In this document: piece by piece, positions 17,846-61,556 of the stretch | Layout: each line of letters begins with the position of its first letter | Position numbering within the stretch: position 1 is the first letter of the stretch | Assembly (NCBI RefSeq): GCF_019972135.1 | Contig: NZ_BPFI01000001.1 | Location: forward strand, 107,106-171,105 | Origin: Sulfurovum sp. TSL1 | GTDB taxonomy: Bacteria; Campylobacterota; Campylobacteria; Campylobacterales; Sulfurovaceae | Direction of reading: 5' to 3' | DNA length: 64,000 bases | Made by a program: the position numbers and the translations under genes | The notes under the pieces: model-generated | Told to the model about the DNA's origin: nothing | Databases searched by the model: none | The model's input: the letters and a program-made list of their open reading frames with translations, nothing else

Positions 17846-18016
17846 CTATATAAATCCCAGCACATCGTTATTTAAGAAGCCTACCAATTATTTAAATAGA
17901 ATCCTATAATTCTTTAGGTGTCCATTTAGGTGTCGCTTTTGACTAATTTCAATTATCGCTTCTAAAGAAAATGACAAACTTACATAGATATTTAAGTAAT
18001 TGTAATGTTACGTTGA

Positions 18017-18463: not shown

Positions 18464-18481
18464 TTTATATTTTCCTCATTA

Positions 18482-18973
18482 CTATAGCGACATTAGACGC
18501 ATTAAAAATTTGCTGGCGTTATCAAAGTTAGACTTCTGATTGGCTAGTTCATATTGCCATTTCTCACCATGAAATAGATTATTTCTCAAACGAAAAACAA
18601 TACCTAAACAACCAATTAACTTTGTTTTTTCTGATAGAGTGTCACTACATAATGATTCAGTTATTTCAGGTGGATTTCCACTTCTACCAATGTGCAGTTT
18701 TTGAAATTTATCATTTAAACTTCCTTCTACATAATAGCGATCTATTAGATATGGAAGATACTCATCTAGTCCACAATTTGATAATTGATTTGCTTCTGTT
18801 AGTTCATCTGCATATTCTCTAATTTTTCTCATATTGCAGTAACCGCTTAATTTTTCACCTTCAAACATACTCCATAGTAATGTAAAATCATATATAGAGT
18901 TTTGTTCATCAGTATCTAAATTTGTAAATGTAGGAACTCTTGCAGATAACCATTCTTTAGTCTCAGGACTCAT
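18482..18973 (-). CDS. HEPN-motif protein, possible toxin or abortive-infection RNase
   Basis: 163 helical residues ending with FRLRNNLFHGEKW, a good R-N-x3-H match to the R-x4-6-H catalytic motif of HEPN RNases, in the usual place within the last helical pair. There is no signal peptide. The ATG at 18973 is preferred because AAGGA lies 8 bp upstream. Another ATG two codons earlier is too close to it. HEPN proteins act in toxin-antitoxin, abortive-infection and CRISPR-linked systems. The partner here would be the membrane protein gene just downstream. No MNT-type nucleotidyltransferase is adjacent. Confidence 0.6.
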   Translation of the reverse strand: MSPETKEWLSARVPTFTNLDTDEQNSIYDFTLLWSMFEGEKLSGYCNMRKIREYADELTEANQLSNCGLDEYLPYLIDRYYVEGSLNDKFQKLHIGRSGNPPEITESLCSDTLSEKTKLIGCLGIVFRLRNNLFHGEKWQYELANQKSNFDNASKFLMRLMSL

Positions 18974-19285
18974 ATTCATATTCCTTGTACACGATTATTT
19001 ATTGTGTAAAACGTATGTCCCTATATTATGTCTGTATCTTTCTGAGAATATGGTAATGAAAGATATTATTTATAATGAATGACCCTTATGGGGGGGTAAT
19101 AGTATAGAATCAGGTGTGGGAATACCCATCTCTAAATATCTTAACTGAAAATAGAAAAAAGTTTCTTTAGTGCAAAATTTTAGAAGCAAAAATGATGCAT
19201 TGTAATTAGTCTTAAAATAAGTGAGTATATAGGGGGAGAATAATAGAATAATAAAACAATTAGTCAAGACTGAAAGAAGAGGGAT
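18974..19285. other. AT-rich gap between divergent accessory genes
   Basis: About 310 bp with no credible gene on either strand. It should hold promoters for the HEPN gene (leftward) and the membrane protein gene (rightward). A run of seven G near 19090-19097 is the only striking local feature. Confidence 0.4.
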
Positions 19286-20218
19286 ATGAAACAAAGTAAA
19301 CGGTACTCTGATTATTTAGATTCAAAAAGAAATATAAGAAAAGAAAAAAACATTTCACCAAAAATTAAAAAATTTAAAGATTATGTAGAAATAATAAAAT
19401 TTTACTTACCTATAATTCTTATAGTTCCACCACTAATTGGTGGAATGTGGCAAACGCTTGAATTAGCTAATATGTCATTATCATTTATCAGATTTTTTTC
19501 TACTACACAGTTATTACCGGATGGTATTTTAGTATTATATATATTACTAGTATTTTTTATAAGTTACAAACTATCTAATAAACTTAGACCTGATAAAATA
19601 AATCTTCAAGATAAAGTATTTATACTTACTAATACTGATCTAACAGATGAAGAGATTAGTAAAAAAATACCTATAGCTCAGGAAAACAAACATTTACTTA
19701 TTTATTTTTTCTTTCTAAATTTCATTTTTGGTTTTTTTAGTTACGGAATATACCCTGAAGTAGAAAAAAATGTTTCTATGTTTATATTAACAGTTTGGTT
19801 AACGGTTTCTTTTATGTTTCTTAAATCAATTTTTGAAACACTCTTTGCAATTTATTTTCTTTATCCTAAACCTATCAATAGTTTTGTAGAAAAAATAACA
19901 AATAGGGACAAGAAAGAAAAGTATAAAAATAAAACGATAGATCATATTTTAGTAATAATTTTTATATTGGTTTTTTTTACTACGATAGGCTTAGTTACTA
20001 AAGCAATATCGGTTTTTCATCACAATTCTATTTTACCAAATGACTTAAAAAATACTACTAATATTCAAGATAAACTAGAAAACAATGATTACAATAAAAG
20101 TAAAATTTTATATCTAAATGACAAGTTTATTTTTATAGAACATACTCAGCATGATAAAAATACTTCGATTGAAGTAATTAAGTTTGATAAACTTTTTGAA
20201 GAACTGAATAATAAGTAG
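19286..20218 (+). CDS. Multi-pass membrane protein of unknown function in the AT-rich patch
   Basis: 310 residues. A basic N-terminus (~40 residues rich in Lys/Arg) is followed by about five membrane helices (for example FYLPIILIVPPLIGGM, GILVLYILLVFFISY, LLIYFFFLNFIFGFF, FILTVWLTVSFMFL, ILVIIFILVFFTTIG). A soluble C-terminus of ~80 residues follows. GAGGG precedes the ATG. Codon use is strongly A/T-biased compared with the flanking housekeeping genes, indicating foreign origin. Family not recognised; membrane effectors of defence systems can look like this, but nothing shows it directly. Confidence 0.6.
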   Translation: MKQSKRYSDYLDSKRNIRKEKNISPKIKKFKDYVEIIKFYLPIILIVPPLIGGMWQTLELANMSLSFIRFFSTTQLLPDGILVLYILLVFFISYKLSNKLRPDKINLQDKVFILTNTDLTDEEISKKIPIAQENKHLLIYFFFLNFIFGFFSYGIYPEVEKNVSMFILTVWLTVSFMFLKSIFETLFAIYFLYPKPINSFVEKITNRDKKEKYKNKTIDHILVIIFILVFFTTIGLVTKAISVFHHNSILPNDLKNTTNIQDKLENNDYNKSKILYLNDKFIFIEHTQHDKNTSIEVIKFDKLFEELNNK

Positions 20219-20810: not shown

Positions 20811-22544
20811 ATGAATTCAACAAATAAAACCTCTGTAGAGGTAAAGACGCTAGACGATCTTGCGGCGTTGGCAGATTATTCACTCATGGAGACGCTAAGC
20901 GCTGATCCTGAAGCTACTGCAGACGGTGTTGACCACGCTCCGCGACAAGTCTTCAGCGGACATTTTGTCCCTGTAAAGCCCACACCGATCGAAAACCCTG
21001 TGTACATCGCACACAGTGAGAACTTCTTTCGTGAACTTGGCTTTGATGATAGTTTGGCAACATCAGAGGATTTTATGCGGATGTTCTCCGGCGATACTTC
21101 AAGGCTGCCAGAGCCACTTAAAAAGTTTGGTTGGGCGACAGGCTATGCACTTTCCATCTACGGGTCGGAGTACTACGAGCAGTGTCCATTTCGTACGGGC
21201 AACGGGTATGGTGACGGTCGAGCCGTTTCCATCTTTGAGGGAGTCATCAACGGAAAGCGCTGGGAGATGCAGCTGAAAGGTGGCGGTAGAACGCCATACT
21301 GCCGGGGTGCTGACGGTCGTGCCGTCTTGCGTTCAAGTATCCGTGAGTTTTTAGCACAAGAGCATATGCATGCGCTGGGCGTACCGACATCACGCTCTTT
21401 GACTCTCTACACCTCAAAAACAGAGAAGGTCAAGCGTCCATGGTTTACAAAAGGATCGTACTCAAGAGACCCCGAAGTGATGATCGATGAGGCCGTGGCT
21501 ATCACCACCCGGGTTGCACCTTCGTTTATAAGGGTGGGTCAACTTGAACTTTTCGGTCGCCGTGCTCGTAAAAATGAGCATCCAAAAGCGATGGAGGAGC
21601 TTGAGACAATGGTGCTGCACTTGATCGATCGTGAGTATAGTGAGGTCATCGATGCGCATCTGCCTACGCAGGAAAAAGTACTTGTACTTGCACGCGAGTT
21701 TCGAAAACGCCTCACCTCGCTGGTGGCAAACTGGATACGCGTGGGCTACTGCCAGGGGAATTTCAACAGCGACAACTGTGCCGCAGGCGGCTTCACCCTT
21801 GATTACGGACCATTTGGGTTTATAGATATGTTTGACCCGAGATATCAGCCGTGGACGGGTGGCGGCGTGCACTTTTCATTTCTCAATCAACCTCAAGCTG
21901 CCGAGCGTAACTTTCATATGTTCTGCATGGCGTTAAAACCGCTACTGGAGTCAGATCAGGATGCTCTGGACCAGTTGGATGAGATAAGACAGGGCTTCCC
22001 TAAAGTCATGCAGGGGGAAATGATCAAGATGTGGGCTTCCAAGCTTGGACTACAAACGTTTAATGCCGCACTCTTCAATGAACTTGTCACGCTTATGGTA
22101 GAAACCTCTGTTGACTACACGATCTTCTTTCGCGAGCTCTCTACGGTACCGGAGGATATCGCTCCGCTGACTAAAAGCTTTTACGGGGACGCAGTACTCA
22201 ATGAAAAGATCTTAAACAGATGGACAGAGTGGCTGGAGAAATGGAGATCACTTGTCCATACGACAAACTCTGCGGACATCAATGCTACTTCGGCTGAATC
22301 CCGTGAAAAGCTTTCTAACCAAATGAAAAGTATAAACCCAAAATACACCTTGCGAGAGTGGTTCCTTGTCCCTGCCTATAAACAAGCTACCAATGGAGAC
22401 TATACCCTTATTAAAGAGTTACAGGAAGTGATGACACACCCCTATGCCGAGCAATCTAAAGCAATAGAGGAGAAATACTACAGAGAAAAGCCTTCCGAGT
22501 TCTTTGAAATCGCCGGTATATCCCATGTTACCTGTTCATCGTGA
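20811..22544 (+). CDS. selO: Protein adenylyltransferase SelO (YdiU/UPF0061)
   Basis: A 577-residue pseudokinase that transfers AMP to Ser/Thr/Tyr of target proteins, linked to redox stress. Family motifs include [51 protein letters not shown], the active-site stretch [19 protein letters not shown] (Asn and Asp metal ligands) and [12 protein letters not shown]. It ends in CSS, the position that holds selenocysteine in animal SelO. Higher GC than the patch before it. Start ATG has AAGGAAG 6-7 bp upstream. Confidence 0.95.
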
Positions 22545-33051: not shown

Positions 33052-33730
33052 AAAAGATGCAATGGTGAGATAATATATTTATTTTTTATTATAAGTTATA
33101 ATTATTATTACCATGAAGAATTCTGCTGATAATCCACCTTTTTTAGAGAAGTTCTTATCATTTTTGTGCATACTTCTGTTTTATTATGATACAATTAAAA
33201 TAGTTGATTTGATAGATATCTCGAAGAAAAACATACTATCAGATCTTTAGGCTTTTCATTGAAAATGATCAGCAATATTACTTTAGGAGAAAATGTAATG
33301 AAAGTAATTAAAGAAAAACTGGAAGAAATTGTAGCACTGATGAACGATCCGGAAGCAACGGTATCGGAAAAAGAAGTGAAAGAGAAACTTGAATCAGTGA
33401 TGTCTCTTCTGAATAATCCTGAAAAAATTGAAATGAGCGAAAAAGAAACCAAAGAAAAATTAGAAGAGATCGTAGCACTTGTGAACAATGTGATGGTAGA
33501 CCCGGATATCGATATTGAATATTGTATACCTGATGTAGCGACAACATTAGACACTTGTGATGTTTCCGGAGATCCGTATATCTTGGTGACATATATTGTG
33601 AGTGACTATGCAAGACCGACACGTAAGATCCGTTTATCCGGTTCAAATATGCAAAATACACCAAAAGTAATAGCTGACCTGATTACTTTCTCTATTGAAC
33701 AATTTAAAAGTGAGATAGACACTGTAGAGA
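33022..33730 (+). repeat. Tandem duplication, unit 1 (~709 bp)
   Basis: The unit runs from the last codons of the preceding gene (TTTAGATGAAG, then CCCTTTCATGCAA) through a long leader and the first duplicated gene. The same series of blocks begins again at 33731. Blocks shared in order are the TTAGATGAAG junction, AATGGTGAGATAA, CTTCTGTTTTATTATGATAC, CTTTTCATTGAAAATGATCA and the gene itself. Confidence 0.85.
33190..33195 (+). promoter_or_regulatory. -10 element of duplicated gene 1
   Basis: TACAAT within the block CTTCTGTTTTATTATGATAC that is conserved in both duplication units. It implies a leader of about 95 nt containing a small conserved hairpin (TTTTC-ATT-GAAAA) before the ribosome-binding site. 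Confidence 0.45.
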
Positions 33731-33738
33731 TTAGATGA
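33298..33738 (+). CDS. Duplicated unknown protein, copy 1 (three helical repeats plus a mixed domain)
   Basis: 146 residues. Residues 1-70 are three imperfect ~24-residue acidic helical repeats: KLEEIVALMNDPEATVSEKE, KLESVMSLLNNPEKIEMSEK and KLEEIVALVNNVMVDPDIDI. The second half is a mixed alpha/beta domain (EYCIPDVATT, YILVTYIVSDYARPTRKIRL, GSNMQNTPKVIADLITFSI). AGGAGA lies 8 bp before the ATG. An ATG 13 codons upstream lies before that site and is rejected. No signal peptide. Family not recognised. It is paralogous to the gene at 34013 at ~85% identity by eye. Confidence 0.75.
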   Translation: MKVIKEKLEEIVALMNDPEATVSEKEVKEKLESVMSLLNNPEKIEMSEKETKEKLEEIVALVNNVMVDPDIDIEYCIPDVATTLDTCDVSGDPYILVTYIVSDYARPTRKIRLSGSNMQNTPKVIADLITFSIEQFKSEIDTVEIR

Positions 33739-34012: not shown

Positions 34013-34453
34013 ATGAAAGAAATTAAAGAAAAATTGGAAGAAATTGTAGCACTGATGAACGATCCGGAAGCAACGGTAATGGAAAAAGAAGTGAAAGAGA
34101 AACTTGAATCAGTGATGTCTCTTCTGAATAATCCTGAAGAAATTGAAATGAATGAAAAAGAAACCAAAGCGAAACTCGAAGAGATTGTTGCACTTGTGAA
34201 TAATGTGATGGTAGACCCGGATATCGATATTGAATATTGTATACCTGATGTAGCGACAACAGCAGAAAGTTGTGATGTTACAGGAGATCCTTATATTTTA
34301 GCGACTTATGTTGTGAGCGAATACACTAGACCAACACGTAAGATACGTTTATCCGGTTCAAACATGCAAAACACACCAAGAGTGATAGCTGATCTGGTTA
34401 CTTTCTCTATTGAACAATTTAAAAGTGAGATAGACTCTGTAGAGATGGGTTAA
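34013..34453 (+). CDS. Duplicated unknown protein, copy 2
   Basis: 146 residues, the same length as copy 1, with the same three helical repeats and C-terminal domain. Most differences are conservative (for example NPEKIEMSEK versus NPEEIEMNEK; TLDTCDVSGD versus TAESCDVTGD). TAGGAGA lies upstream of the ATG. That both copies stay intact, with their own promoters, suggests both are used, perhaps for dosage or as a heteromer. Confidence 0.75.
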   Translation: MKEIKEKLEEIVALMNDPEATVMEKEVKEKLESVMSLLNNPEEIEMNEKETKAKLEEIVALVNNVMVDPDIDIEYCIPDVATTAESCDVTGDPYILATYVVSEYTRPTRKIRLSGSNMQNTPRVIADLVTFSIEQFKSEIDSVEMG

Positions 34454-36074: not shown

Positions 36075-36092
36075 AATACACTTTAGTGTATT
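36075..36092. promoter_or_regulatory. 18-bp palindrome in the cluster 1 leader
   Basis: AATACAC-TTTA-GTGTATT, 33 bp upstream of the first start codon. An extra half-site (AATACAC) lies at about 36050. It could be an operator or a small hairpin in the 5' leader. Confidence 0.5.
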
Positions 36093-36124
36093 TTTCAAAA
36101 CTTCATACATATAAGGAGTCAACT

Positions 36125-36838
36125 ATGACGAAAATCGTAACAGAAGGTCCTGCTGGGTATATGCCACAGTCAGCACCGGCAATGGGGGTAGAGCTTGCGC
36201 CAGAAGGTTCAGCTTTGCTTTATGGTAATGTTGTCACACCTGAAGAGGCAATGAGAGATGCTGCTAGAGCACTACTCACAAGAGACAACCCAACAATCTT
36301 CCCTGGTCCACAAGTTTTATGGGACTGGAAAGATGATGTTGCGGAAAAAGCTGCAGCAATTTTAGATCTTGCATCTGAGATTCCAAACTGTAAAATCATT
36401 CCAATGCCAGATTACAGACCAAAATATCCGAAGATCGATGTTAAGGCTGAAATCAATCCAAATCACCCAAATCTAACAATCTTGGATAACAGAATCAAAG
36501 CTTGTGTTTTTGTCGGTGTGCATTGTCACTATGCAAATCTTTCTCTTAGAATGATCCGTGCAGGTACTGATTGTTATACAACTGCATTATGTGCTTATAT
36601 GGGACATGAAGAAGCAATGGCATCAATTAGAGATCTCCATGCATCAGACATTCAAAAGTTCAAAGAGATAGTAATTGAAGAAAGAAACAAATTAGGCATT
36701 GAGTGGGAAACTACTCTACCACCTGAAAATCCGTCTTTAGAAAAAGAAGATTACAGTACATTATCACCGGCTGATTATGGCGAGTATAGAAGTCTCATCA
36801 TGACCAAAAAAGGTGAGCATGTTACTGAAGTCGAATAA
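36125..36838 (+). CDS. 2-oxoacid:ferredoxin oxidoreductase cluster 1, fifth (E-type) subunit, CODH-beta/ACS-epsilon-like
   Basis: 237 residues starting MTKIVTEGPAGYMP after AAGGAG. It is related to the subunit at 58199 through IFPGPQVL, YRPKYPKID, EINPNHPNLTI and GVHCHYAN. The fold pattern is that of the CO-dehydrogenase beta / acetyl-CoA synthase epsilon family (PF02552-like), found as the extra E subunit in five-subunit pyruvate and 2-oxoglutarate:ferredoxin oxidoreductases of Hydrogenobacter. Its exact job is not established. The conserved His-Cys-His and Asp-Cys-Tyr could bind metal or nucleotide; that is inference. It has a ~50-residue C-terminal extension that the cluster 2 copy lacks. 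First gene of the E-A-B-G-D operon. Confidence 0.8.
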   Translation: MTKIVTEGPAGYMPQSAPAMGVELAPEGSALLYGNVVTPEEAMRDAARALLTRDNPTIFPGPQVLWDWKDDVAEKAAAILDLASEIPNCKIIPMPDYRPKYPKIDVKAEINPNHPNLTILDNRIKACVFVGVHCHYANLSLRMIRAGTDCYTTALCAYMGHEEAMASIRDLHASDIQKFKEIVIEERNKLGIEWETTLPPENPSLEKEDYSTLSPADYGEYRSLIMTKKGEHVTEVE

Positions 36839-44116: not shown

Positions 44117-46741
44117 ATGACAGAAACAGAAGCATTAGTCAAAGCAAATATTGAAAAATACAAGAAACTAGATAAAGGTGAGTGGGATGATGAAGCACTT
44201 ATAGAGGCGCAGAACAATATAGAATTTGTAAAACAATTCAAAGAAGAACTCTCTAAAGAACTTTTTGGACAAGATCAAGCGATCAATGTGGTGGCCAACA
44301 GTATGAAAACCACAGTCAAGGATCAAAAAGGACCTAAGGCCACCTATCTTTTTTTAGGACCTCCGGCTACCGGTAAGACCTACCTTGCAGAACTGATGGC
44401 AGAACATATACCTAAGTATAAGATCATGAAGTTCGACATGACACAGTACCATCAGCAAAACGGTGGAGAGCTGTATGGATATCCTGCCGGATGGAAAGGG
44501 TATGGTGTCGGTCAACTGACTGGTTTTGTACATAGAAACCCCAAGGCGGTTATCGTACTTGATTCATTTGAAAAGTGTGACAATGTCATCCAGAACAACC
44601 TTTTCTCCATCTTTGAAGGTGGTAAGATGCGTGATGCATGTGGTTGGGACAAGATCACCGATGAGCCGTGTAATGAAGATCCTGATATCATCTATAACGA
44701 TGAAAATGCAAACTACCTAGTGGATTTTACAGAGGCGATTTTTATTATTACAACGAGTGTAGGTAAAGAGCTTTACCAAGACTACAGGTTTCAAGATCTG
44801 GTTGAGAAAGATTATGTACAAGCTGAATCTATGATCCTTGAAGCGATCAAGAGAGAGAAGAAAAGAGAAAGTAGAAGCGGCGGTATCCAGGAGGCTATCG
44901 TACCAGAGCTTGTTTCCAGATTCTCCAAAGCACATATTGTCCTCTTCAATAAGCTGGAGTATGATGCCTTTGAAAAAATATCCAAAAGGGTGTTTTTAGG
45001 CTATAAAGATGAGTTCTATGACCAGTATAAGATCGAGTTTGTTGTAGGTAACAACTTTGACAACTTTTTGAAAATTCAGATGCTTAATTTTGCTCCGGAA
45101 CTGGATGCAAGACGACTTAAAGAGAAAGTGAGTACCTTCTTTTTTAACAGGATCACACAATTCATGCAAGACTCAGATAAGCCGATCATGTATTTCAAGC
45201 AGATCAAAGTATCTCTCTCCAAAGAGTCTGTAGCATTTTTAAAGGAACGGGTACTCCCACTGATTGAAAATGAAACACTCGTAAGGGAAATGTTCAGAAA
45301 AAATACGACCCTTGATGTCAATGATAGCATCATGGAGAAGCATGGCATCATTACCTATAAGGTCAACGCTTGTAAATTTTCACAAGTAGTAAGGATCAAA
45401 GACTTTAGCGAAGATGGTCTGGTCTTTGATATCCCTAATGTTTCTTTTAATGATATTGCGGGCCATCATAAGGCAAAGCAGAGATTGAGAGAGGTCATTA
45501 ACTTTTTTAAAGAGCCAAAACTCCTGGAAAGTTTTAAGATCGTACCACCAAAGGGTATGCTATTGTATGGACCTCCGGGTACAGGAAAAACGATGCTGGC
45601 AAAAGCCTTTGCCAAAGAGGCGGAACTTCCTTTTATCTCAACTACTGGACTTGAACTGCTCCAACCTGAAAAGACCAAATCGATCTTTACCAGGGCAAAA
45701 GCGTATGCACCTGCGATCATCTTCATTGACGAAATCGATACCCTCGGAAGACGTGATGGAGAAAATGGTCGAGAAGTACCTATTAATAAACTCTTATCAG
45801 AGATGGATGGTTTTGCAGGGAGAAAAGGTGAAGATATCTTTGTGATCGCTGCAACCAACTACAAAGAAAATATCGATCCGGCCATTATCAGACCGGGAAG
45901 GGTAGAGATCCATATAGAGATCAATAATCTTGATAAAGATGCAAGACAGTACTTTCTGGAGAAAGTGATCAATGAAAAGCCTACAATCGGCACATTTGAC
46001 ATGAAAAAACTGCTGATGTATACCACAGGATTTACAGGTTCTCAACTTGAAATGCTGGGGAAAGAAGCTTCATACTACTGTCTACGTCATGGTTTGCCTG
46101 CGATCACTCAGGATATTCTCATTGATCAGATCAATACGATCAAATACGGTGAGAGACAATCTTACCTCTCTCTTGAACAGATGTTTGAAGAGACAGCGAT
46201 CTATGAAGCGGGACGTGCGGTCATCTCTAAGGTCTTAATGCCTCATATTCATATAGAGCATGTAAGCATTACGCCTAAAGACAATAATGAGCATTTCATT
46301 TCACATAATTACAGTGATGTGCAAGAGAACATGACTGTCAAAGATTTTAAAGACAAAATCTGTGTATCACTGGCGGGAAGAGCAGCTCAGATCAAACAGT
46401 TCGGGGATGTAGAAGGTATGGATTCTGGTGCTTCAAATGACCTACAGCAGGCCACGCGTGATGCCTACGTGGCTATTGCACATTATGGAATGGATAAAGA
46501 GGTCGGGTATATCAATATCAATGGTGTGATGGATGCACAACAAAAATCTGTTTCCAATAAAGATACAGAACACTATCATGAGAAAATAGACTCAGCACTT
46601 GAACGCTGGATGGCTGAAGGTGAACAGAGAGTGGTTGATCTAGTCAATAAGCATTGGAGTACGATAGAAAAACTCTCTAAAATACTTCTTAAAAAAGAGA
46701 TCATTTATGCAGATGAACTGGATGAGATTCTAACTAGATAA
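44117..46741 (+). CDS. Fused ClpB-D2/ClpX-like AAA+ and FtsH-like AAA+ protein with degenerate M41 peptidase
   Basis: 874 residues, no membrane segment. Module 1 (~45-345) resembles the second AAA+ domain of Hsp100 proteins: ELFGQDQAINVV, Walker A GPPATGKT (81-88), an arginine-finger region PELVSRFS (~263-270) and sensor 2 LDARRLKEK (~329-336). Its Walker B reads VIVLDSFEK, with Ser150 where Glu is expected. Module 2 (~442-680) is FtsH-type with Walker A GPPGTGKT (485-492), Walker B IIFIDE (534-539), sensor IAATN and RPGR finger. Module 3 (~690-870) matches peptidase M41, but the HEXXH motif is YEAGR (696-700), so both zinc histidines are lost. The third-ligand stretch GASNDLQQAT (771-780) remains. 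FtsH's membrane anchor is replaced by module 1. It should be an ATP-driven unfoldase or remodeller, not a protease. Confidence 0.85.
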   Translation: MTETEALVKANIEKYKKLDKGEWDDEALIEAQNNIEFVKQFKEELSKELFGQDQAINVVANSMKTTVKDQKGPKATYLFLGPPATGKTYLAELMAEHIPKYKIMKFDMTQYHQQNGGELYGYPAGWKGYGVGQLTGFVHRNPKAVIVLDSFEKCDNVIQNNLFSIFEGGKMRDACGWDKITDEPCNEDPDIIYNDENANYLVDFTEAIFIITTSVGKELYQDYRFQDLVEKDYVQAESMILEAIKREKKRESRSGGIQEAIVPELVSRFSKAHIVLFNKLEYDAFEKISKRVFLGYKDEFYDQYKIEFVVGNNFDNFLKIQMLNFAPELDARRLKEKVSTFFFNRITQFMQDSDKPIMYFKQIKVSLSKESVAFLKERVLPLIENETLVREMFRKNTTLDVNDSIMEKHGIITYKVNACKFSQVVRIKDFSEDGLVFDIPNVSFNDIAGHHKAKQRLREVINFFKEPKLLESFKIVPPKGMLLYGPPGTGKTMLAKAFAKEAELPFISTTGLELLQPEKTKSIFTRAKAYAPAIIFIDEIDTLGRRDGENGREVPINKLLSEMDGFAGRKGEDIFVIAATNYKENIDPAIIRPGRVEIHIEINNLDKDARQYFLEKVINEKPTIGTFDMKKLLMYTTGFTGSQLEMLGKEASYYCLRHGLPAITQDILIDQINTIKYGERQSYLSLEQMFEETAIYEAGRAVISKVLMPHIHIEHVSITPKDNNEHFISHNYSDVQENMTVKDFKDKICVSLAGRAAQIKQFGDVEGMDSGASNDLQQATRDAYVAIAHYGMDKEVGYININGVMDAQQKSVSNKDTEHYHEKIDSALERWMAEGEQRVVDLVNKHWSTIEKLSKILLKKEIIYADELDEILTR

Positions 46742-48263: not shown

Positions 48264-48656
48264 TTAACCAACGTTCGGAGCAGTTTGTGCATCCCATTTT
48301 GAGATATGCTGCGTGTACCACTTCTTAAAATCTTTTTCCAAAAAACCTTGTAGCTCTTTTGGCCCTTTCAGTACTTCCCATCGTTTATGAAACTTTTCCA
48401 ATTTTTTTCTTATGAGATCATGATCGCTTTTGTGCATCTGCATATCAGAGTAGGCACTTTGCTCCATCATATCTTCTTCTGTTTTAAAGTGGGTTTCAAT
48501 TTCCGTTAAAAATCCAGGGAAAAGTTCATCCACTTTTTCTACATCTTTGGCTTTCACCGCATCATAAAAGGCATTGATCACTTCCATCTCATCTTCATGC
48601 AGCATATTCATCATGGCATTTGCCACTTGTTGTACATCTTGTTGTTGAATTAGCAT
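48264..48656 (-). CDS. Bacteriohemerythrin-like O2-binding protein
   Basis: 130 residues with the hemerythrin iron ligands in order: MLHEDEMEV, THFKTEEDMM, MHKSDHDLI and HISKWD. The di-iron four-helix bundle binds O2 reversibly for sensing, storage or delivery. The ATG at 48656 is chosen because GGAG lies just upstream. The ATG five codons earlier lacks one. Confidence 0.9.
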   Translation of the reverse strand: MLIQQQDVQQVANAMMNMLHEDEMEVINAFYDAVKAKDVEKVDELFPGFLTEIETHFKTEEDMMEQSAYSDMQMHKSDHDLIRKKLEKFHKRWEVLKGPKELQGFLEKDFKKWYTQHISKWDAQTAPNVG

Positions 48657-48788
48657 TTTATCTCCATACACTTGGTTTATAAAAAAGATTATAGCTACAA
48701 AAGTTTATAGTTACTGAAAGATAGCAATATGTTTCAATATTTAAAGTCTAAATGAGGATATAAAAATGTGAGATACGATAGATTAAGA

Positions 48789-49100
48789 TTACACTTCTTC
48801 AATCAAGCATACTAGATCAAAACCTTCTTTTTTCGCTTTTTCTTCGATCATTTCTGCTTTGGTTTGCGCTATTTCAAACATATACCCGCCACAAAACCCT
48901 TCACCATTGGTTACGATCTCATGGGCAATAGCTTCTGCTTCTTCCTGATCTTTATGAAACACTTCTTTGAGCATTGTCATACAAAATTCCCATGAAACAT
49001 ACTTATCATTGATGATTGAAACAAGGCAGAACTTAGGTGTATCGAACTCTGTTTTCAAGTAAGCTTTGAGTGTTTTGGGCTTTTTAATCGTTACTGGCAT
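48789..49100 (-). CDS. ClpS-like adaptor with altered N-degron pocket
   Basis: 103 residues, the usual ClpS length. It aligns with ClpS along the core: LVSIINDKYVSWEFCMTMLK (ClpS: V-x-L-V-N-D-D-Y-T-P-M-E-F), GEGFCGGYMFEIAQTKAEMI ([20 protein letters not shown]) and a C-terminus FDLVCLIEEV. The Asn-Asp-Asp triad that holds the N-degron amino group is N31-D32-K33, and the conserved His of the pocket is a Thr (V63-T64). AGGA lies 5-6 bp before the chosen ATG; a longer start 16 codons earlier is less likely. It may carry other cargo to an AAA+ unfoldase. Confidence 0.8.
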   Translation of the reverse strand: MPVTIKKPKTLKAYLKTEFDTPKFCLVSIINDKYVSWEFCMTMLKEVFHKDQEEAEAIAHEIVTNGEGFCGGYMFEIAQTKAEMIEEKAKKEGFDLVCLIEEV

Positions 49101-49314
49101 ACTGTTCCTAACTGCTCTAGATAATTTATCGTTTACTATTATACCCAAAAAACCTATAGGTTACTTCGAAGGGGGTGTGATGCTATCTATTGGATACAGC
49201 AGATAGAGAGGAGAGAAGTGTTCCGGTTTTTGATAAATCCTGCTATAATTCCATTTCAAAAAAACATCTTATTAGCGTGAGTGTTTACAGACGGTTTGTA
49301 TACAAGGATCAAGC

Positions 49315-51016: not shown

Positions 51017-51301
51017 CTATGAACAGCCGCATGAACCGCCACTCTCAGTGCTGCAGCTTCCTGCACTGCTTGTTCCGCATGATCCGCCTGCATTAGGGTT
51101 CTCAGATACTCTGATTACAAACATGTTATCAGCAGTCTTTTGTGCAAAGAACAGGTGTTTTGTACAAAAATCCTCATTCATGAATTCTGCTACGATATTT
51201 GAATAATTGTATGCATCTTGCTGATTATCAAATGTTTTTTCACTTGCATATTCACTTCTTTTAAAACATCCACATTCGTGTTCCATTTGTACTGTATACA
51301 T
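51017..51301 (-). CDS. Small cysteine-rich protein, copy A (MYT...CxCFK family)
   Basis: 94 residues. The N-terminal half (MYTVQMEHECGCFKRSEY, then NEDFCTKHLFFAQ) is shared with the protein at 51587 (MYTLEIEKECSCFKKSGF, NQQFCMTHFFEAV). The conserved C-x-C and F-C-x-x-H suggest a metal or cluster site. The tail (GSCGTSSAGSCSTESGGSCG, then CS) holds further cysteines in Gly/Ser, like a metal-binding or disulfide-rich end. Family not recognised. Confidence 0.7.
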   Translation of the reverse strand: MYTVQMEHECGCFKRSEYASEKTFDNQQDAYNYSNIVAEFMNEDFCTKHLFFAQKTADNMFVIRVSENPNAGGSCGTSSAGSCSTESGGSCGCS

Positions 51302-51586: not shown

Positions 51587-51904
51587 TTAATTACCTCCAT
51601 CGCCTTTTGGAGCGGATTTACTAGCGTCAAACCCAATGGTAACACCACTTTTATTTACCAGCGTATTCGCATCTTCAATATCATCATCGTCCTCATCATC
51701 AGGTCTCACACTGCTATGAATGACTATTTTGTCACCATAATCTACGGCTTCAAAAAAGTGTGTCATACAAAACTGCTGATTCATAAGGCACTCCAAAACA
51801 CGTGCTTTGTTATACATATCTTCTCTTGATTCGAATGTCATAGTTTTTTCAAACCCGCTCTTTTTAAAGCAGCTACACTCTTTTTCAATCTCTAGGGTAT
51901 ACAT
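51587..51904 (-). CDS. Small cysteine-containing protein, copy B (MYT...CxCFK family)
   Basis: 105 residues. The N-terminal ~60 match copy A at 51017, including C-x-C-F-K-K-S and F-C-x-x-H. The C-terminal tail differs: acidic (DDEDDDDIEDAN), then Gly/Lys/Ser-rich without cysteines. The shared half is probably the functional domain. AAAGGAA precedes the ATG. The two genes read the same way on either side of the pseudogene. Confidence 0.7.
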   Translation of the reverse strand: MYTLEIEKECSCFKKSGFEKTMTFESREDMYNKARVLECLMNQQFCMTHFFEAVDYGDKIVIHSSVRPDDEDDDDIEDANTLVNKSGVTIGFDASKSAPKGDGGN

Positions 51905-51976: not shown

Positions 51977-54859
51977 CTATGAAAGCTCTTTGATGACTTT
52001 AAAATCACCTGACTCATAGGAGTAGACTTTCTTAGCCTCTTTATCAATGATCACCGGACGTATCCACTCATTTAAAATAAACTCTTTGGCTATAGAGTTT
52101 TCGACAGCTTTTCCTACTTTTTCCAAAGGTGCTTCCATAAATGTCAGCAGTCTTACCGGTTCATGATAGGCTTCACCTTCCAACTGGACTGATTGTGTAG
52201 GAAGACCGATCTTTAGATCACTGTAATTACCATTATAAACACCGACTTTTGCCACCACATTGTGATAGACCTTAGAACCAGCACCATAAATGGCATTATC
52301 TACCGTAGAAAAATAGTGCTCCATATTGATCCATTCACCTACGATGAGCGGCCCGTCAAAGATACGCGTGAGGATATCGGCATTGTCATTATCTACACGC
52401 CAGTCATAAGAGTGCATAAAGAACCTATTGTGTAAATTGACATGTTTGGTTGTACTTCGAGGTCCTGCAAAGGCCCCCATATTACCTGCCAGTCCCCATT
52501 CAGGTCTAGGCTCGGACCAGTCCATCGATTTGATCATCACATCTTCTTGTGTATGTGTATACGGAAGCGCCTTTATTCTTTCTTCTCTGGACATTTGTGA
52601 TGCTTTGTTAAAGTCATGCATGATCTGGAAAAATTTGGGCATCTCTTCCGCTGTGAGGATATCTGTATCATAGTATTTGATCTCATCCGTGGTAGTGATG
52701 TGCATCCCTGGTATGAATTTTGTACTGTCAGGAATGACAATGCCTTTTTCTTTCAGTGCTTCACGTACCTCTTTGGTATTGGCTATCATACAAAGTGCTC
52801 TTGTGTTTGGAAGAGAGATGTTCCCTCCGCATGCACCACAATCCAGTGCTGATTCAAATGGATTGTTGTCAGAGATACTTCCGTGCCCGATGATCGTGAC
52901 AAATTGAGGAAAATCATCCACTTGACCTATCATTGTCAGGTAGTTATGAAGATAGTGCACTTTCTCTTCAAGTGTGAACCCGACCATGGAGAGCTTGTGT
53001 TTTTGGAAGGTATAGTCCTCTTCTGTGATCTTGTACTCATTTTTGAGTTTTTCTACGAGTTCATCGGACAACGCTGTCTTTAATTCCTTACCTAAAACAA
53101 GGTGATCTCTGATCGCCTGGATCTCTTCTGTTGAATACTCTTTTGGGCCGTTGCCCGACAAGACTTCACTGATGATGTGTGTATGAAGTTTATTGACATA
53201 CATCTCTATCTCTTCGGGTGAAAGCTTATCCAGTGTATAGGTCGTTTTTGGTTTTTGAGGTTTGAGCTTTGAAAAAAGCTTCTGTGTTCTTCTCGGTGAA
53301 AACGTTTTTCCAAAAAGGTTGATACCGAAGATCCATCCGATCGCCTCAACCATAATATAGGGTGTATATGGGTTGTTCTTGAGATCACTGAGTACTTTTT
53401 TGGTCGTTTTGTTCATCCCTTTTTTGGAACTGTAATCTTCATAAAGCTCTTTTGGAATTTCAAATACTATATTTCCCGCTTTTACGATCGCCGGAGATAA
53501 AAAGAGTTCATGCGATTTATCAAACTCTACAAATGCGATCGGAAGACCCAAAAAGCCGCCGGCACCATAGGTTTCGTATGGACCAGAACTTTCGATCTGT
53601 CTTCGAATCACTTCAGATCTTACATCCAAACAGAATGTAGCAGACGCTACCGCTTTTTCATTTTCTTCCTGTGGTACAGTGGTGAACTCATCGACATAAC
53701 AGCGGATATAACTGTCTTCAAGTGATTTCAGCCAGACATATCCTTCTTCTTCTCTCAGTGTCTCCATGATCTTCGCAAGTTCCGTAAGCGGTATATCTGT
53801 GTTGCCAAGATGATCACTCGCAAGATGTACTTGTTTTGCATCCAGTTGAAGTACGTATTGTGTATAGCTTTCCAGGATCTCATCATAGTTCTGCTGATCT
53901 TCCATCGCATCGATGAATTTTCCGGGTAAGCTCCCTTTATACTTAAGTATTTTGAGTAGAACATAAGCACTGTTGTCCTGAATATAATTCGCTAGTTCTT
54001 GATAGTTACTGATCTTTCTGTTCTTCAGATACTTCAGTTCATAGTAGAACCTGATCGCCAAATAATCCATTAAGGATGAAGGGTACTGCTGTTGCGAATA
54101 ATAGTTAGGATCTTCGGAACGATATTTGATAAATCCTGCCCAACCATGAAGTTTAAGAATGTGCTTAAGAAGGTTTCTTTCTATATCTTCCTCTGCAACC
54201 TGCAGCTTTTCAAGCGCCTCTTTCACAAAGGTCTCAGAATCATTGGCATAGTCAAGGTTCTCATAGAGTTTAAACGTTTCAAACATACCGAGATCTCTAT
54301 TGGACATCGTGAGTGTCGTCTGCTCTTCATCTAAGAAACGTGAGACGTATTCGATCACTTCTTTTTCTATCAACTCTTTATCATCCCTGTCAAAAAGGAT
54401 GTCATTGATCTCATATAGCGTCATGTGCTTTGTAAGTTTTCTGCGCCATTTCTCTTTGTTATGATAGAAGAATTTTTCATCCAGATATGCCAAAAGTTCT
54501 TCATCGATCTTGTGTTCTGTGATCGATGCAGGGCTTCTGAAACTGTTCCATTTCGGGTTGACTTCCAGGAGACATTTTTCAGCCAGATCGTAATATTCTG
54601 CCAGGCCGTCGATCTCGAGAATTTTTTCCAGATTGGATCTCAGAATGTCAGGATCGATCTTCCCTTCCTCATAGAGTTTCAGATAGTATGATGACTCCAT
54701 ATAGACTCTACCGCCAAAAATACTTTGGGCTTTATCGAGTCCCTCTTTGAAGTTAAGATGTTCAAATCCTTTCAATGGATTATGATGAATGAATGAACCG
54801 ATAGGCCAATAGTGCGGAACAGTATTTTTAACGGCATTCAGTTTTTCTAATATACTCAT
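51977..54859 (-). CDS. dabA: Inorganic-carbon transporter DabA (DUF2309)
   Basis: 960 residues of the DUF2309/UPF0753 family, the carbonic-anhydrase-like half of the DAB system. DAB converts CO2 to bicarbonate in the cytoplasm, driven by ion flow through DabB. The beta-CA-type zinc site is visible: C410 and D412 (FCLDVRSE), H659 (IIGHGSISD) and C674 (SALDCGACGG). The C-x-D and 15-residue His-Cys spacings match those of the studied Halothiobacillus DabA. It is the last gene of the dabB-membrane protein-dabA operon; its ATG overlaps the middle gene's stop (ATGA). Confidence 0.92.
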   Translation of the reverse strand: MSILEKLNAVKNTVPHYWPIGSFIHHNPLKGFEHLNFKEGLDKAQSIFGGRVYMESSYYLKLYEEGKIDPDILRSNLEKILEIDGLAEYYDLAEKCLLEVNPKWNSFRSPASITEHKIDEELLAYLDEKFFYHNKEKWRRKLTKHMTLYEINDILFDRDDKELIEKEVIEYVSRFLDEEQTTLTMSNRDLGMFETFKLYENLDYANDSETFVKEALEKLQVAEEDIERNLLKHILKLHGWAGFIKYRSEDPNYYSQQQYPSSLMDYLAIRFYYELKYLKNRKISNYQELANYIQDNSAYVLLKILKYKGSLPGKFIDAMEDQQNYDEILESYTQYVLQLDAKQVHLASDHLGNTDIPLTELAKIMETLREEEGYVWLKSLEDSYIRCYVDEFTTVPQEENEKAVASATFCLDVRSEVIRRQIESSGPYETYGAGGFLGLPIAFVEFDKSHELFLSPAIVKAGNIVFEIPKELYEDYSSKKGMNKTTKKVLSDLKNNPYTPYIMVEAIGWIFGINLFGKTFSPRRTQKLFSKLKPQKPKTTYTLDKLSPEEIEMYVNKLHTHIISEVLSGNGPKEYSTEEIQAIRDHLVLGKELKTALSDELVEKLKNEYKITEEDYTFQKHKLSMVGFTLEEKVHYLHNYLTMIGQVDDFPQFVTIIGHGSISDNNPFESALDCGACGGNISLPNTRALCMIANTKEVREALKEKGIVIPDSTKFIPGMHITTTDEIKYYDTDILTAEEMPKFFQIMHDFNKASQMSREERIKALPYTHTQEDVMIKSMDWSEPRPEWGLAGNMGAFAGPRSTTKHVNLHNRFFMHSYDWRVDNDNADILTRIFDGPLIVGEWINMEHYFSTVDNAIYGAGSKVYHNVVAKVGVYNGNYSDLKIGLPTQSVQLEGEAYHEPVRLLTFMEAPLEKVGKAVENSIAKEFILNEWIRPVIIDKEAKKVYSYESGDFKVIKELS

Positions 54860-58198: not shown

Positions 58199-58768
58199 AT
58201 GGCAAACCAAGGTCCTGCGTATTATTCACCGTATCCTGCGGCTACGTATGAAGGTGTAATCACACCACCAGAAGGAAAAGCACTTTTGTTGGAAGATGTG
58301 GTTGATGAAGAAATTGCAATGAGAGAAATTGCAAGAGTGATGTTGACAAGTGAAAATGCAACTATTTTCCCTGGTCCACAAGTATTATATGGTTGGAATG
58401 AAGAAGCTAAGAAGAAAGCTACTCTTATCAAAGAGATGGCAGAGGTTCTTAACGCTAAAATGATTCCAATGTATGATTACAGACCAAAGTATCCAAAAAT
58501 TGATGCTGAAGTTGAGATCAACCCAAATCACCCGAACTTAACAATTTGGCATAATAACATCAAAGCAGCAATTTTCATTGGTGTACACTGTCACTATGCG
58601 AATGTCGCATTAAAAATTGTAAGAGCAGAGACAGATTGTTATACGATCGCGATCTGTGGTTTGTCAGGGCATGAAGATGCAATGGCTACATTAAGAGACC
58701 AGCACTCTCACGAACTTGAAAAATTCATCAAGATCGCTAAAGAAGTTAAAGCTGAGCTTGGAAAATAG
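58199..58768 (+). CDS. 2-oxoacid:ferredoxin oxidoreductase cluster 2, fifth (E-type) subunit, CODH-beta/ACS-epsilon-like
   Basis: 189 residues, homologous to the cluster 1 protein at 36125 (shared IFPGPQVL, MIPMYDYRPKYPKID, INPNHPNLTI, GVHCHYAN, ETDCYTIAICGLSGHEDAMA) but without its C-terminal extension. A subunit of this kind belongs to the five-subunit enzymes known from Hydrogenobacter; its role is not established. GGAG upstream; 14 bp before the alpha gene. Confidence 0.8.
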   Translation: MANQGPAYYSPYPAATYEGVITPPEGKALLLEDVVDEEIAMREIARVMLTSENATIFPGPQVLYGWNEEAKKKATLIKEMAEVLNAKMIPMYDYRPKYPKIDAEVEINPNHPNLTIWHNNIKAAIFIGVHCHYANVALKIVRAETDCYTIAICGLSGHEDAMATLRDQHSHELEKFIKIAKEVKAELGK

Positions 58769-58781
58769 GTAGGAGATTATA

Positions 58782-59984
58782 ATGAGTAAAATAACTGATA
58801 TGACAGCAACACACAACTGGTCTGGACAGAAACTAGTTTCAACAGACTATATGCTTTTTGAAGCTCCTAGAACTAAACACTTTATGACAGGTTCTGAGGT
58901 TGTAAAAGAAGCGGTTAAACGTGCAACAGTAGATGCATCGGTTTCATATCCAATTACACCACAATCTGAAGCAGCTCACCTTATCGGTGAACTTTGGGCT
59001 GAAGGTTATGTTGGTGTTTATTTCCGTGGTGAAAATGAATTTGGTGTAATGTCTGAAGTTGCAGGTTGTTCAATGGCCGGTGCCAGAACAATTACAACTA
59101 CTTCAGGTCCTGGTACACTTAGAGCAATGGAAAACTTTGCACAGTGGTCAGGTACAAGAGCTCCAATGCAGCTTATCCTAATGGCACGTGGTATTAACTC
59201 CCCACTTACTATTCAACCAGACAACTTGGAAGTACAATATCTTCTAGAAACTGGATGTATGATCTGGTATGCAGAAAATGTTCAAGAACTATTTGATATG
59301 TCACTAGCAGCATTTACAGTTGCTGAAAAACCTGATGTCCATGTACCGATCATTACAGCAGTAGACGGATTCTTTGTATCTCACACTCGTGAGGCAGTTA
59401 TGTTGCCAGAGGATGATATCGCTCTTCAGCCATATAATCCATATGCAGCGCCACTACCTCCGATCGACTCTGAGATGCCTCCAGGACGTTTCCTGAGAGA
59501 TCCATTTGTAATGAAGTCTAACTATATCTCTTATGCTACACATGCATCTTGGCAGTGGGAGATCAGATCAGCAGTTGAAAGATCTAAACCATATGCAAGA
59601 CATTACTTAAACGGTCTAGTACATGTTACAGGTACAGAAGATGCAGAGATCGCATTTGTTACTTGTGGTACGGCTTCTAACCAAGCGAAAGAGGCAGAGA
59701 GAGAATTAAACAAATTGGGTGTTAAGAGTAAAGTAATTAAATTAAGAACTATTAGACCTTTCCCTGAAGATGAGCTTCTTGAAGCGCTAGAGGGTGTAAA
59801 ACATGTATTCGTACCTGAATTCAACGTTGTTGGTTGGTTATCAAATGAAGTAAAAGCTAAACTTTATGGAAAATCTGATGCTAACATTGTTGGTGCACCA
59901 AGAGTTGCTGGTGGTATGAGTATGCCTGCAGAAGCGATCATTAAAGAAGTGATGGAAAATATTAACCCTGGAAAAGGAGCATAA
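58782..59984 (+). CDS. 2-oxoacid:ferredoxin oxidoreductase cluster 2, alpha subunit
   Basis: 400 residues with YPITPQSEAAHLIGE (from residue 56), MAGARTITTTSGPGTLRAM and IRPFPEDELLEALEGVKHV. Paralogous to 36851. The cluster's gene order (D-E-A-B-G) is closer to the porEDABG operon of Hydrogenobacter than cluster 1 is, so pyruvate is a weak first guess for this copy and 2-oxoglutarate for the other. The reverse is possible. TAGGAG precedes the ATG. Confidence 0.88.
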   Translation: MSKITDMTATHNWSGQKLVSTDYMLFEAPRTKHFMTGSEVVKEAVKRATVDASVSYPITPQSEAAHLIGELWAEGYVGVYFRGENEFGVMSEVAGCSMAGARTITTTSGPGTLRAMENFAQWSGTRAPMQLILMARGINSPLTIQPDNLEVQYLLETGCMIWYAENVQELFDMSLAAFTVAEKPDVHVPIITAVDGFFVSHTREAVMLPEDDIALQPYNPYAAPLPPIDSEMPPGRFLRDPFVMKSNYISYATHASWQWEIRSAVERSKPYARHYLNGLVHVTGTEDAEIAFVTCGTASNQAKEAERELNKLGVKSKVIKLRTIRPFPEDELLEALEGVKHVFVPEFNVVGWLSNEVKAKLYGKSDANIVGAPRVAGGMSMPAEAIIKEVMENINPGKGA

Positions 59985-59985
59985 C

Positions 59986-60855
59986 ATGTCACATGATATA
60001 TATAAAATCAATCCTGAATTTAGAGAGATCATGCCTAAAGAGATCATTGAGCTTGAAGAAAATGCTACATGGGCTAAAAATATGGATAAGCCACGTGGTA
60101 TTAAAGAGCTTCCGGATACAAAAGAGTTACTTGAAGAACACTCACTATGTGCCGGATGTCCAGAGGCAGCTGCATTAAGATATGTACTCTCTGCATTGCC
60201 TAAGCCTGAGGATACAATCATTGTAAACTCAACAGGTTGTACATCTTTAATGTTCCCACATATTGCACTTCATACAGTACACTCACTCTTTGGTAACCAA
60301 AATGCTGTTGCATCTGGTATCAAAAGAGTATTGGACTGGAGATTCCCGGACACACAAAAAGATGTGGTTGTTCTAGCAGGTGACGGTGCGACTGTTGATA
60401 TCGGTCTTGACTATACACTTCAATCGTTCTTTAGACAAGAAAAGATCACAACGATCTGTTTTGATAACGAAGTATATGCAAACACAGGTGGTCAAGAGTC
60501 AGGTATGACGGCTAAAGGTCAAGTATTTAAAATGGCACCAACTGGTAAAAAGTTTGACAAGGTACCAATGTGGGAGCTTGCTAAAACTTCTGGTTGTCAC
60601 TACTCTGTAAACATGACTGCTTCTGCGCCAAAAGCAGTAGCTAAAGCAGTAAGAGAAGCGATTTTGGTTGCAAGAGAGATCGGACCAACTTATATCAACC
60701 TTTATACACCATGTATCCTTGAGATCGGTCTAAGTGCAAACGAAGGTCTTGGTGAGATGAAAGATCAAGATAAAGACAGATTTGCATCTTATAAACATGT
60801 TTCACCAGAAGCAGAAGAATACTTGAAAAAATGTAAAGCAGAAGGACTTTTATAA
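59986..60855 (+). CDS. 2-oxoacid:ferredoxin oxidoreductase cluster 2, beta (TPP-binding) subunit
   Basis: 289 residues. Cluster ligands are Cys 55 and 58 (HSLCAGCPEA), Cys 85 (NSTGCTSL) and a late Cys (YTPCILEIGL). The TPP motif GDGATVDIGLDY starts at 132 and continues in FDNEVYANTGGQESGM. The STGC and LFGNQNAVASG segments are closer to classic pyruvate enzymes than those of cluster 1, as far as can be judged by eye. It starts 1 bp after the alpha gene stop, and its stop overlaps the gamma start as TAATG. Confidence 0.9.
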   Translation: MSHDIYKINPEFREIMPKEIIELEENATWAKNMDKPRGIKELPDTKELLEEHSLCAGCPEAAALRYVLSALPKPEDTIIVNSTGCTSLMFPHIALHTVHSLFGNQNAVASGIKRVLDWRFPDTQKDVVVLAGDGATVDIGLDYTLQSFFRQEKITTICFDNEVYANTGGQESGMTAKGQVFKMAPTGKKFDKVPMWELAKTSGCHYSVNMTASAPKAVAKAVREAILVAREIGPTYINLYTPCILEIGLSANEGLGEMKDQDKDRFASYKHVSPEAEEYLKKCKAEGLL

Positions 60856-61556
60856 TGGCAAAAGATTCAATTAAAATCAGAATGCCCGCTCTAGGTGGGC
60901 AAGGGGCGGTTACTGCTGCCCATATTGCAGCAACTGCAGCGGATACAGAAGGTTACTACGCGGTATCTAACCCATTCTTTGGTGCTGAAAAACGTATGGC
61001 TCCATCTGAGAGTTATGTAAGAATAGGTACTGTGCCTATCTATGATAGAGGGGAAGTTATCTATCCTGATATCGTTATGATCTATCACCCACAAGTTATT
61101 ACTATGGGTAAATCATATACTATGCCTTTTTACGCTGGTATCAAAGAGAATGGTCTTGTTATCATCAACTCTGATATAGATCTTTTAACTGATGAAGATA
61201 AAAAAACATTAGATGACTTGAATGTAAAAGTTCTTACTAGAGACTTTACGCAATTTGCTATCGACCAGGCAGGTACTGAACTTGCTACAAACATGGCAAT
61301 GTTGGGTGCACTTTTTGGTGCTCTAGGTACTGTTAGCAAACCTGCTATTGAAGAAGGTATTAAAGACAGATTCCTTAAGAAATATACAGCTTCTGGTGGT
61401 ACAGCTACACTTGACTCTGTTATTGAGAAAAAGTTCAAAAAGAAAATGGACCTGATCCAGAAAAACCTTGACACTGCATCTGCAGCATTCGACTTGACTG
61501 CTGAATGGTGTAAAGAAGTAGGTTTCGAACAAATGTTGGAAGCTCCAAGCAAATAA
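60855..61556 (+). CDS. 2-oxoacid:ferredoxin oxidoreductase cluster 2, gamma subunit
   Basis: 233 residues, PorG family: IRMPALGGQGAVTAAHIAAT at the N-terminus, then FFGAEKRMAPSESYVR, YPDIVMIYHPQVITMGKSYT and GTELATNMAMLGALFGA. Clearly paralogous to 38946. Last gene of the cluster, followed by a strong hairpin. Confidence 0.92.
   Translation: MAKDSIKIRMPALGGQGAVTAAHIAATAADTEGYYAVSNPFFGAEKRMAPSESYVRIGTVPIYDRGEVIYPDIVMIYHPQVITMGKSYTMPFYAGIKENGLVIINSDIDLLTDEDKKTLDDLNVKVLTRDFTQFAIDQAGTELATNMAMLGALFGALGTVSKPAIEEGIKDRFLKKYTASGGTATLDSVIEKKFKKKMDLIQKNLDTASAAFDLTAEWCKEVGFEQMLEAPSK

Follow-up and report, generated by a model that had tools for sequence, protein, structure and literature searches.

Plant FtsHi proteins and the Ycf2-FtsHi motor are ATP-binding FtsH-type proteins with an inactivated M41 peptidase domain and a non-proteolytic role (PMC9020784, PMC8197885), and they are the nearest described analogues of the protein reported here, an 874-amino-acid fusion encoded in a 64,000-nucleotide stretch of the Sulfurovum sp. 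TSL1 genome (contig NZ_BPFI01000001.1, positions 107,106 to 171,105; hereafter the window). The fusion joins a Clp-type AAA+ module (module 1) to an FtsH-type AAA+ module (module 2) that is followed by an M41 domain predicted to be catalytically dead. Like the plant proteins, it combines an inactivated M41 domain with complete AAA catalytic residues under selection; however, those are membrane-bound organellar proteins with one AAA+ domain that act in hetero-complexes, whereas the fusion is a soluble bacterial protein with a Clp-type ring. FtsH, i-AAA and m-AAA are homologous to it in module 2 and in the M41 domain: the Walker and sensor residues, the arginine fingers and the Asp at the third zinc-ligand position are the same. 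Unlike these proteases, the fusion lacks a transmembrane anchor and the HEXXH motif, has one more AAA+ ring at its N-terminus, and has lost the aromatic pore loop 1 (FVGxG) by deletion. As in the Hsp100 proteins ClpB, ClpA and ClpC, there are two AAA+ modules per chain, and module 1 aligns with their second nucleotide-binding domain (NBD2) through Walker A, the aromatic pore loop, the arginine finger and the small domain; unlike them, the fusion has no NBD1, M-domain or N-domain (about 30 residues precede module 1), its second ring is FtsH-type, and the module-1 catalytic Glu is lost. Soluble Clp-FtsH fusions with an intact HEXXH, found in Alteromonas arenosi and in Campylobacterales, have the same domain order and represent the parental state; unlike the dead fusion, they retain both the protease and the module-1 Walker B motif. 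In the open PubMed Central literature, we found no description of a bacterial Clp-FtsH fusion, including the HEXXH-intact family, most subscription papers being outside the reach of the search.

The fusion gene is a single intact open reading frame with an ATG start, and the opposite strand is rich in stop codons (Table 1). Pfam assigned AAA_2 to residues 73-270, AAA to 481-603 (E-value 1e-42) and Peptidase_M41 to 691-871, all well over the gathering cut-offs; when the two halves (1-440 and 441-874) were searched separately with profile hidden Markov models, as the initial annotation of this DNA had suggested, the first matched AAA_2 and the second AAA and Peptidase_M41. In NCBIfam, residues 33-176 aligned with ATPase domain 2 of ClpA/ClpB, and the FtsH match ran over residues 440-868; both were far under the equivalog cut-offs, and the whole protein scored 305 bits against the FtsH profile TIGR01241, below its 600-bit equivalog cut-off. 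No membrane segment was found in the fusion, the highest 19-residue Kyte-Doolittle mean being 1.04, compared with 2.6 in the membrane FtsH of the same genome, in agreement with the missing anchor noted initially. An AlphaFold model built from 27 relatives (mean predicted local distance difference test score 77.9, predicted template-modelling score 0.56) resembled ClpB NBD2 over residues 34-410 (4fd2, the ClpB C-terminal domain; VIA Z 23.6, 3.5 Å over 294) and FtsH over residues 442-864 (7zbh; VIA Z 23.0, 4.2 Å over 369). These profile and fold matches bear out the soluble Hsp100-FtsH fusion with a dead M41 domain that the initial annotation had described. An assembly fusion was ruled out, because 43 distinct sequences, drawn from independent assemblies, have the identical architecture and lesions; with the same lesions in all 43, a chance origin of the architecture is also excluded.

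These 43 distinct sequences with an inactivated M41 domain constitute the dead-type set, in which some positions are covered by 42. The two Walker A motifs annotated initially could both be read, at residues 81-88 and 485-492 (GPPGTGKT in module 2), and Lys87 of the former is kept in all 42 sequences covering the site. The annotated Ser150 at the catalytic Glu position of the module-1 Walker B motif (AVIVLDSFEK) is one instance of a replacement common to the whole set, with Ala in 31 sequences and Ser in 12 (43/43). Together, the retained Walker A and the replaced Glu support the prediction that module 1 is fitted to bind ATP and not to hydrolyse it, in keeping with the initial proposal that it may bind ATP without hydrolysing it quickly. 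Trp126, in the module-1 pore loop, and Arg268 are present in 43/43 sequences; this loop, YGYPAGWKGYG, is what we take to be the counterpart of the ClpB D2 GYVG loop. In module 2, Lys491, Asp538-Glu539, the sensor Asn581, Arg592 and Arg595 are likewise invariant (43/43), which supports the prediction of a catalytically complete ATPase. Overlooked in the initial annotation was the deletion from module 2 of the six residues of pore loop 1 (MFVGVG in the FtsH of this genome). The intact members examined from Campylobacterota and Alteromonas share it, but the Clostridial one does not. The initial proposal that module 2 drives remodelling finds support in the catalytic residues, but none for module 2 acting alone, since pore loop 1 is absent and the aromatic loop lies in module 1.

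The M41 domain reads YEAGR at the HEXXH position and retains the GASNDLQQAT region with D775, both as first noted. Across the dead-type set, the first His of HEXXH has been replaced by Tyr, Arg or Lys in 43/43 sequences, and the second zinc-ligand His has been lost in 28/43, this last His being kept in 15/43; Glu697 is kept in 41/43 and missing in two, and Asp775 is kept in all 42 sequences covering it. Pairwise ratios of non-synonymous to synonymous substitution rates (omega) for this domain lay at 0.014-0.128, far below 1 although some two- to threefold looser than in the ATPase domains, and omega was <0.13 in every domain of the fusion. The dead M41 domain is thus under purifying selection, and this constraint implies that it has been retained for a reason other than proteolysis.

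In the tree, the dead clade was monophyletic with 100/100 support and nested among fusions with an intact HEXXH, so that loss of the protease is most simply explained by one event. The initial annotation had named two observations that would speak against its reading, namely an intact HEXXH in homologues and separate genes for the two halves in all relatives. Distant homologues do keep the motif; in the clade to which the protein of the window belongs, every member has lost it, and none encodes the two halves in separate genes. A standalone AAA-M41 protein of about 450 amino acids belongs to a different lineage by the tree. The genome survey for the same domain order that it had suggested yielded the 43 dead-type relatives and, as co-occurring partners, a trigger-factor paralogue and a small protein, c9. 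Dead-type relatives occur in Sulfurovum, Sulfurimonas, Sulfuricurvum and related metagenome-assembled genomes (MAGs); named relatives also came from Arcobacter-labelled assemblies. Within the genus of the window, whose named members include Sulfurovum sp. AR, the fusion was detected in 20/78 genomes (536-620 bits, vs <=123 for ClpA/ClpB), and an extra 223-bit match proved to be a contig-end fragment of the fusion gene (G010). Among 299 genomes sampled across the order, 2 carry the dead fusion.

Other families of Campylobacterales have soluble M41 proteins of about 780-1090 amino acids with two AAA modules. Fully intact fusions (DE, DE and HEAGH) were found in Campylobacterales (L075, L079 and L083) and Alteromonas arenosi (L190). 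Other fusion lineages are in the opposite state, with HEXXH intact and the Walker B of module 1 degenerate; in several, that of module 2 is degenerate too. In three families of the order (f4, f18 and f20; L067-L093), fusions of about 780-810 amino acids keep HEXXH, but their module-1 Walker motifs are degenerate and the Walker B of module 2 often is as well (ILEGVD, LLEDID), a reversal of the division of labour proposed for the dead clade. The Alteromonas arenosi protein (929 amino acids, L190:5620-8406) is the sole gammaproteobacterial full-length case found, and horizontal transfer likely accounts for it. Clostridia from rumen MAGs (L191-L194) encode Clp-FtsH proteins of 1139-1188 amino acids in which all motifs and pore loop 1 are intact and an additional segment separates the two ATPase modules; their position in the tree may be due either to long branches or to a fusion that arose independently. 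The standalone soluble protein occurs in 33/78 genomes of the genus (for example G000:C1:597711-599054; also L046:6709-8055, L221, L011 and L013-L020), and its nearest kin are the ATPase-degenerate fusions. It keeps HEXXH (HEAGH/HEAAH), its Walker B reads LEDID and its arginine-finger region is altered; to judge from these motifs, it is a protease whose ATPase is probably crippled. No relative of the fusion was found in plasmid records at E 1e-60, and none was confirmed by tblastn in a scan of viral contigs; a phage or plasmid origin was accordingly dropped. A defence system was also dropped, as PADLOC gave only generic AAA matches (IetA, 99.8 bits on module 2).

The trigger-factor paralogue scored 281.8 bits against TIGR00115 (cut-off 180.2) and has the peptidyl-prolyl isomerase (PF00254) and C-terminal chaperone (PF05698) domains of trigger factor (Tig), but differs from it in lacking the ribosome-docking motif GFRxGK. 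Wherever the N-terminus of a paralogue copy was read, this motif was missing; the housekeeping trigger factors examined do carry it. The paralogue is probably off the ribosome. It was found in 16/20 fusion genomes of the genus vs 0/58 others, and in 18/21 dead-fusion genomes outside the genus (34/41 fusion genomes overall). An altered trigger factor and ClpS had initially been put forward as the context of the fusion; the trigger-factor link is real, but ClpS is just a common neighbour in one subtype. No trigger-factor paralogue free of the ribosome motif was found described in the open PubMed Central literature, with the same limit on subscription papers.

The second partner, c9, is an unclassified protein of about 100-146 amino acids across fusion genomes. 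It occurs in 19/20 fusion genomes of the genus vs 0/58 others (Fisher 3e-17), in 17/21 dead-fusion genomes outside Sulfurovum and in 36/41 fusion genomes overall; among fusion-free genomes, its frequency is about 1 in 350. Across the order it was detected in 3/299 sampled genomes, among them both genomes that carry the dead fusion. The third genome is G270, 84% complete, in which the trigger-factor paralogue is present and no fusion was detected; the fusion was sought at the contig end beside c9, but this end encodes a ferredoxin, and G270 remains an exception. Most fusion genomes have two or more copies of c9, and in strain TSL1 a third copy (45% identical) lies outside the window at G000:C1:40281-40709. 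Pfam gave no match for c9, matches in NCBIfam and PHROGs were weak, and the best structural matches (Foldseek E 0.6; VIA Z 6.4, to CapZ) did not rise out of the noise band, and c9 was left unassigned to any family.

Distances of the fusion and of the paralogue, compared over 19 genomes, had a correlation of 0.93, which was 0.925 with the housekeeping trigger factor taken into account, a value that 0/2000 permutations reached; correlations with the housekeeping trigger factor itself were only 0.21 and 0.24, respectively. Two comparisons illustrate this pattern. For a Sulfuricurvum genome (G369), identity to the window is 82% in the fusion and 76% in the paralogue but 52% in the housekeeping trigger factor, whereas for a genome of the same genus (G026) the values are 59%, 53% and 82%. 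When mapped onto a tree of the genus built from the housekeeping trigger factor, presence of the fusion changes about six times, at least four of them by well-supported branches, and phylogeny alone is therefore insufficient to explain the co-occurrence. These distances indicate that the set has moved jointly between families. The fusion, the paralogue and c9 are the members common to the different contexts, and the three could be a system of their own.

On balance, we favour by a little the reading that the fusion is a soluble, non-proteolytic, ATP-driven AAA+ remodeller, its activity being predicted, that would work with a ribosome-free trigger factor and a small adaptor. By analogy with the parent families, the protein would form a hexamer of two stacked ATPase rings. 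The first ring, of ClpB-NBD2 type, would hold ATP without hydrolysing it efficiently and, with the sole canonical aromatic pore loop, would act as a clamp, while ATP hydrolysis in the FtsH-type second ring would power the cycle; the dead M41 ring would serve as a structural base and exit channel from which substrates come out intact. Substrates would be handed to, or brought by, the trigger-factor-like chaperone freed from the ribosome, with c9 as an adaptor or cofactor. The oxygen-binding neighbours of the gene (hemerythrin, globins) suggest, short of proof, that the clients would be oxygen-damaged proteins of microaerobic sulfur oxidisers. A bolder formulation, which we advance tentatively and hold somewhat less probable than its opposite, is that of a third type of system by which bacteria reshape proteins, next to ClpB-DnaK and to Clp/FtsH proteolysis, with a clamp ring, a pore-loop-free motor ring and dedicated partners, that would have spread as a unit among these organisms. 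Several points weigh against the favoured reading. The biochemistry of the fusion is inferred throughout, and the weak point is that the hydrolysing second ring, which would have to move the substrate, has no pore loop 1, the loop that usually does the gripping. Since c9 has no recognisable family or fold, the adaptor role is a guess. The three genes mostly lie outside one shared operon; four fusion genomes of the genus have no trigger-factor paralogue, including G073 and G080 at 97% and 87% completeness; and the oxygen-binding neighbours occur mainly in one subtype of the fusion, with other subtypes adjoining nitrate-assimilation genes.

The gene neighbourhood could also fit a protein that activates or matures certain metallo-enzymes, as AAA+ proteins of the MoxR/CbbQ type do, such as the oxidoreductases or hemerythrins encoded nearby, rather than a general remodeller. 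Two pyruvate/2-oxoacid:ferredoxin oxidoreductase operons lie in the window (36086-39656 and 58199-61556), one of which flanks the fusion locus in several relatives, and a hemerythrin gene directly follows the fusion in many Sulfurimonas and Sulfuricurvum loci. However, other subtypes have no adjacent oxidoreductase genes (in G026, G028, G061, G063 and G077 the fusion adjoins nitrite reductase and NarK-like genes) and MoxR-type vWA partners are missing from the conserved partner set, which makes such specialisation unlikely. A regulatory dead subunit that assembles with the active 450-amino-acid AAA-M41 protein or with membrane FtsH seems rather improbable. Plant FtsHi pseudo-proteases do join heteromeric complexes (PMC9020784), and the lesions of the 450-amino-acid protein are complementary to those of the fusion, which made a hetero-hexamer attractive; nevertheless, its gene is present in 9/20 fusion genomes vs 24/58 others (Fisher p 0.80), a chance-level co-occurrence on which the hetero-hexamer was rejected, and the AAA-M41 regions of the two proteins are about 37-41% identical and fall into separate clades. 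Membrane FtsH is found in every genome, and occurrence therefore cannot judge it as a partner.

A motor that translocates or pulls proteins, as in the chloroplast Ycf2-FtsHi complex, appears quite improbable, given that the fusion has no membrane anchor and that the neighbourhoods examined contain no conserved translocon or membrane partner, even though both have a dead M41 domain and Ycf2-FtsHi motor chains were among the good Foldseek and VIA matches. Residual peptidase activity, with substituted metal ligands and the retained Glu697 and Asp775, is very hard to credit: these two residues and, in a minority, the last His are kept, but the first zinc ligand is replaced throughout the set, the second in most of it, and the Glu itself is gone from two sequences. 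As for a decaying gene without function, several motifs are indeed degenerate, yet the fusion is full-length in dozens of genomes, its module-2 catalytic set is invariant, it has been co-transferred with two partners, and the low omega of every domain excludes a pseudogene, leaving decay a negligible prospect.

The gene neighbourhood differs between subtypes. Around the 874-amino-acid subtype, the commonest neighbours encode hemerythrin, receiver-like, globin, ClpS and LRV-repeat proteins, and the NikA-like protein upstream of the fusion is limited to this subtype (8/8 vs 0/70 genomes in the genus). Hemerythrin is also the commonest neighbour in other genera (its cluster is in 21/50 compared loci). 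SelO, a protein AMPylase (PF02696), is encoded at 20811-22544 of the window and adjoins the fusion in some Sulfurimonas and Sulfuricurvum loci (L148, L150-L154 and L182). The subtype of about 845 amino acids often adjoins nitrite reductase, NarK-like and PP2C-kinase genes, which were named by eye and not by profile; a protein with PP2C-phosphatase and protein-kinase-like parts is encoded directly upstream of one such fusion (L052:4468-6171), with counterparts in G028, G061, G063, G077 and G085. Elsewhere in the window, two small Cys-containing proteins (51017-51301 and 51587-51904) lie beside a DUF2309/DabA-like gene (51977-54859), as they do in relatives, and a stretch at 18001-20000 with short unclassified reading frames has a GC content of 27%, against about 39% around it; it is perhaps a recent insertion.

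Table 1. Features of the fusion locus, in window coordinates.
Feature	Position	Strand	Basis
Second c9 copy, 159 amino acids, 88% identical	33259..33738	+	sequence comparison
c9, 146 amino acids, no Pfam family, predicted alpha-beta-beta-beta-alpha domain	34013..34453	+	co-occurrence; predicted fold
Trigger-factor paralogue, 419 amino acids, without GFRxGK ribosome-docking motif	40111..41370	+	TIGR00115; co-occurrence; distance correlation
Bacterial-type globin, frequent neighbour	42130..42534	+	Pfam PF01152
Tandem NikA-like (ribbon-helix-helix type) two-repeat protein, 124 amino acids, directly upstream of fusion	43639..44013	+	Pfam; locus comparison
Clp-FtsH pseudo-protease fusion, 874 amino acids	44117..46741	+	open frame, Pfam, NCBIfam, predicted structure
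Module 1, residues 31-410: ClpB/ClpC NBD2-like AAA+ domain and small domain	44207..45346	+	Pfam AAA_2 E 2e-22; VIA match to 4fd2
Module-1 Walker A, GPPATGKT, residues 81-88, including Lys87	44357..44380	+	sequence, alignment
Module-1 pore loop YGYPAGWKGYG, residues 120-130, including Trp126	44474..44506	+	alignment
Module-1 Walker B, AVIVLDSFEK, residues 144-153; Ser150 at catalytic Glu position	44546..44575	+	alignment
Module 2, residues 441-680: FtsH-type AAA+ domain, pore loop 1 deleted	45437..46156	+	Pfam; alignment
M41 domain, residues 681-870, catalytically dead (predicted)	46157..46726	+	Pfam PF01434 E 2e-26; omega 0.014-0.128
YEAGR, residues 696-700, at HEXXH position	46202..46216	+	sequence, alignment
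Hemerythrin-domain protein	48264..48671	-	Pfam PF01814
ClpS-like protein, frequent neighbour in 874-amino-acid subtype	48789..49148	-	Pfam PF02617

Intact, ATPase-degenerate and protease-dead members occur side by side in one bacterial order, so that the family forms a natural series from which one could learn which of the rings does the gripping, which does the pulling and what use a dead protease ring has. In addition, a trigger-factor paralogue that is probably off the ribosome and is co-inherited with an AAA+ partner provides a direct test of a post-translational role for trigger factor. In the dead clade, a bacterial FtsH-type protease has been turned by one inactivation event into a probable non-proteolytic machine, and the fusion and its partners point to an undescribed system, of predicted activity, that would reshape proteins and not destroy them.

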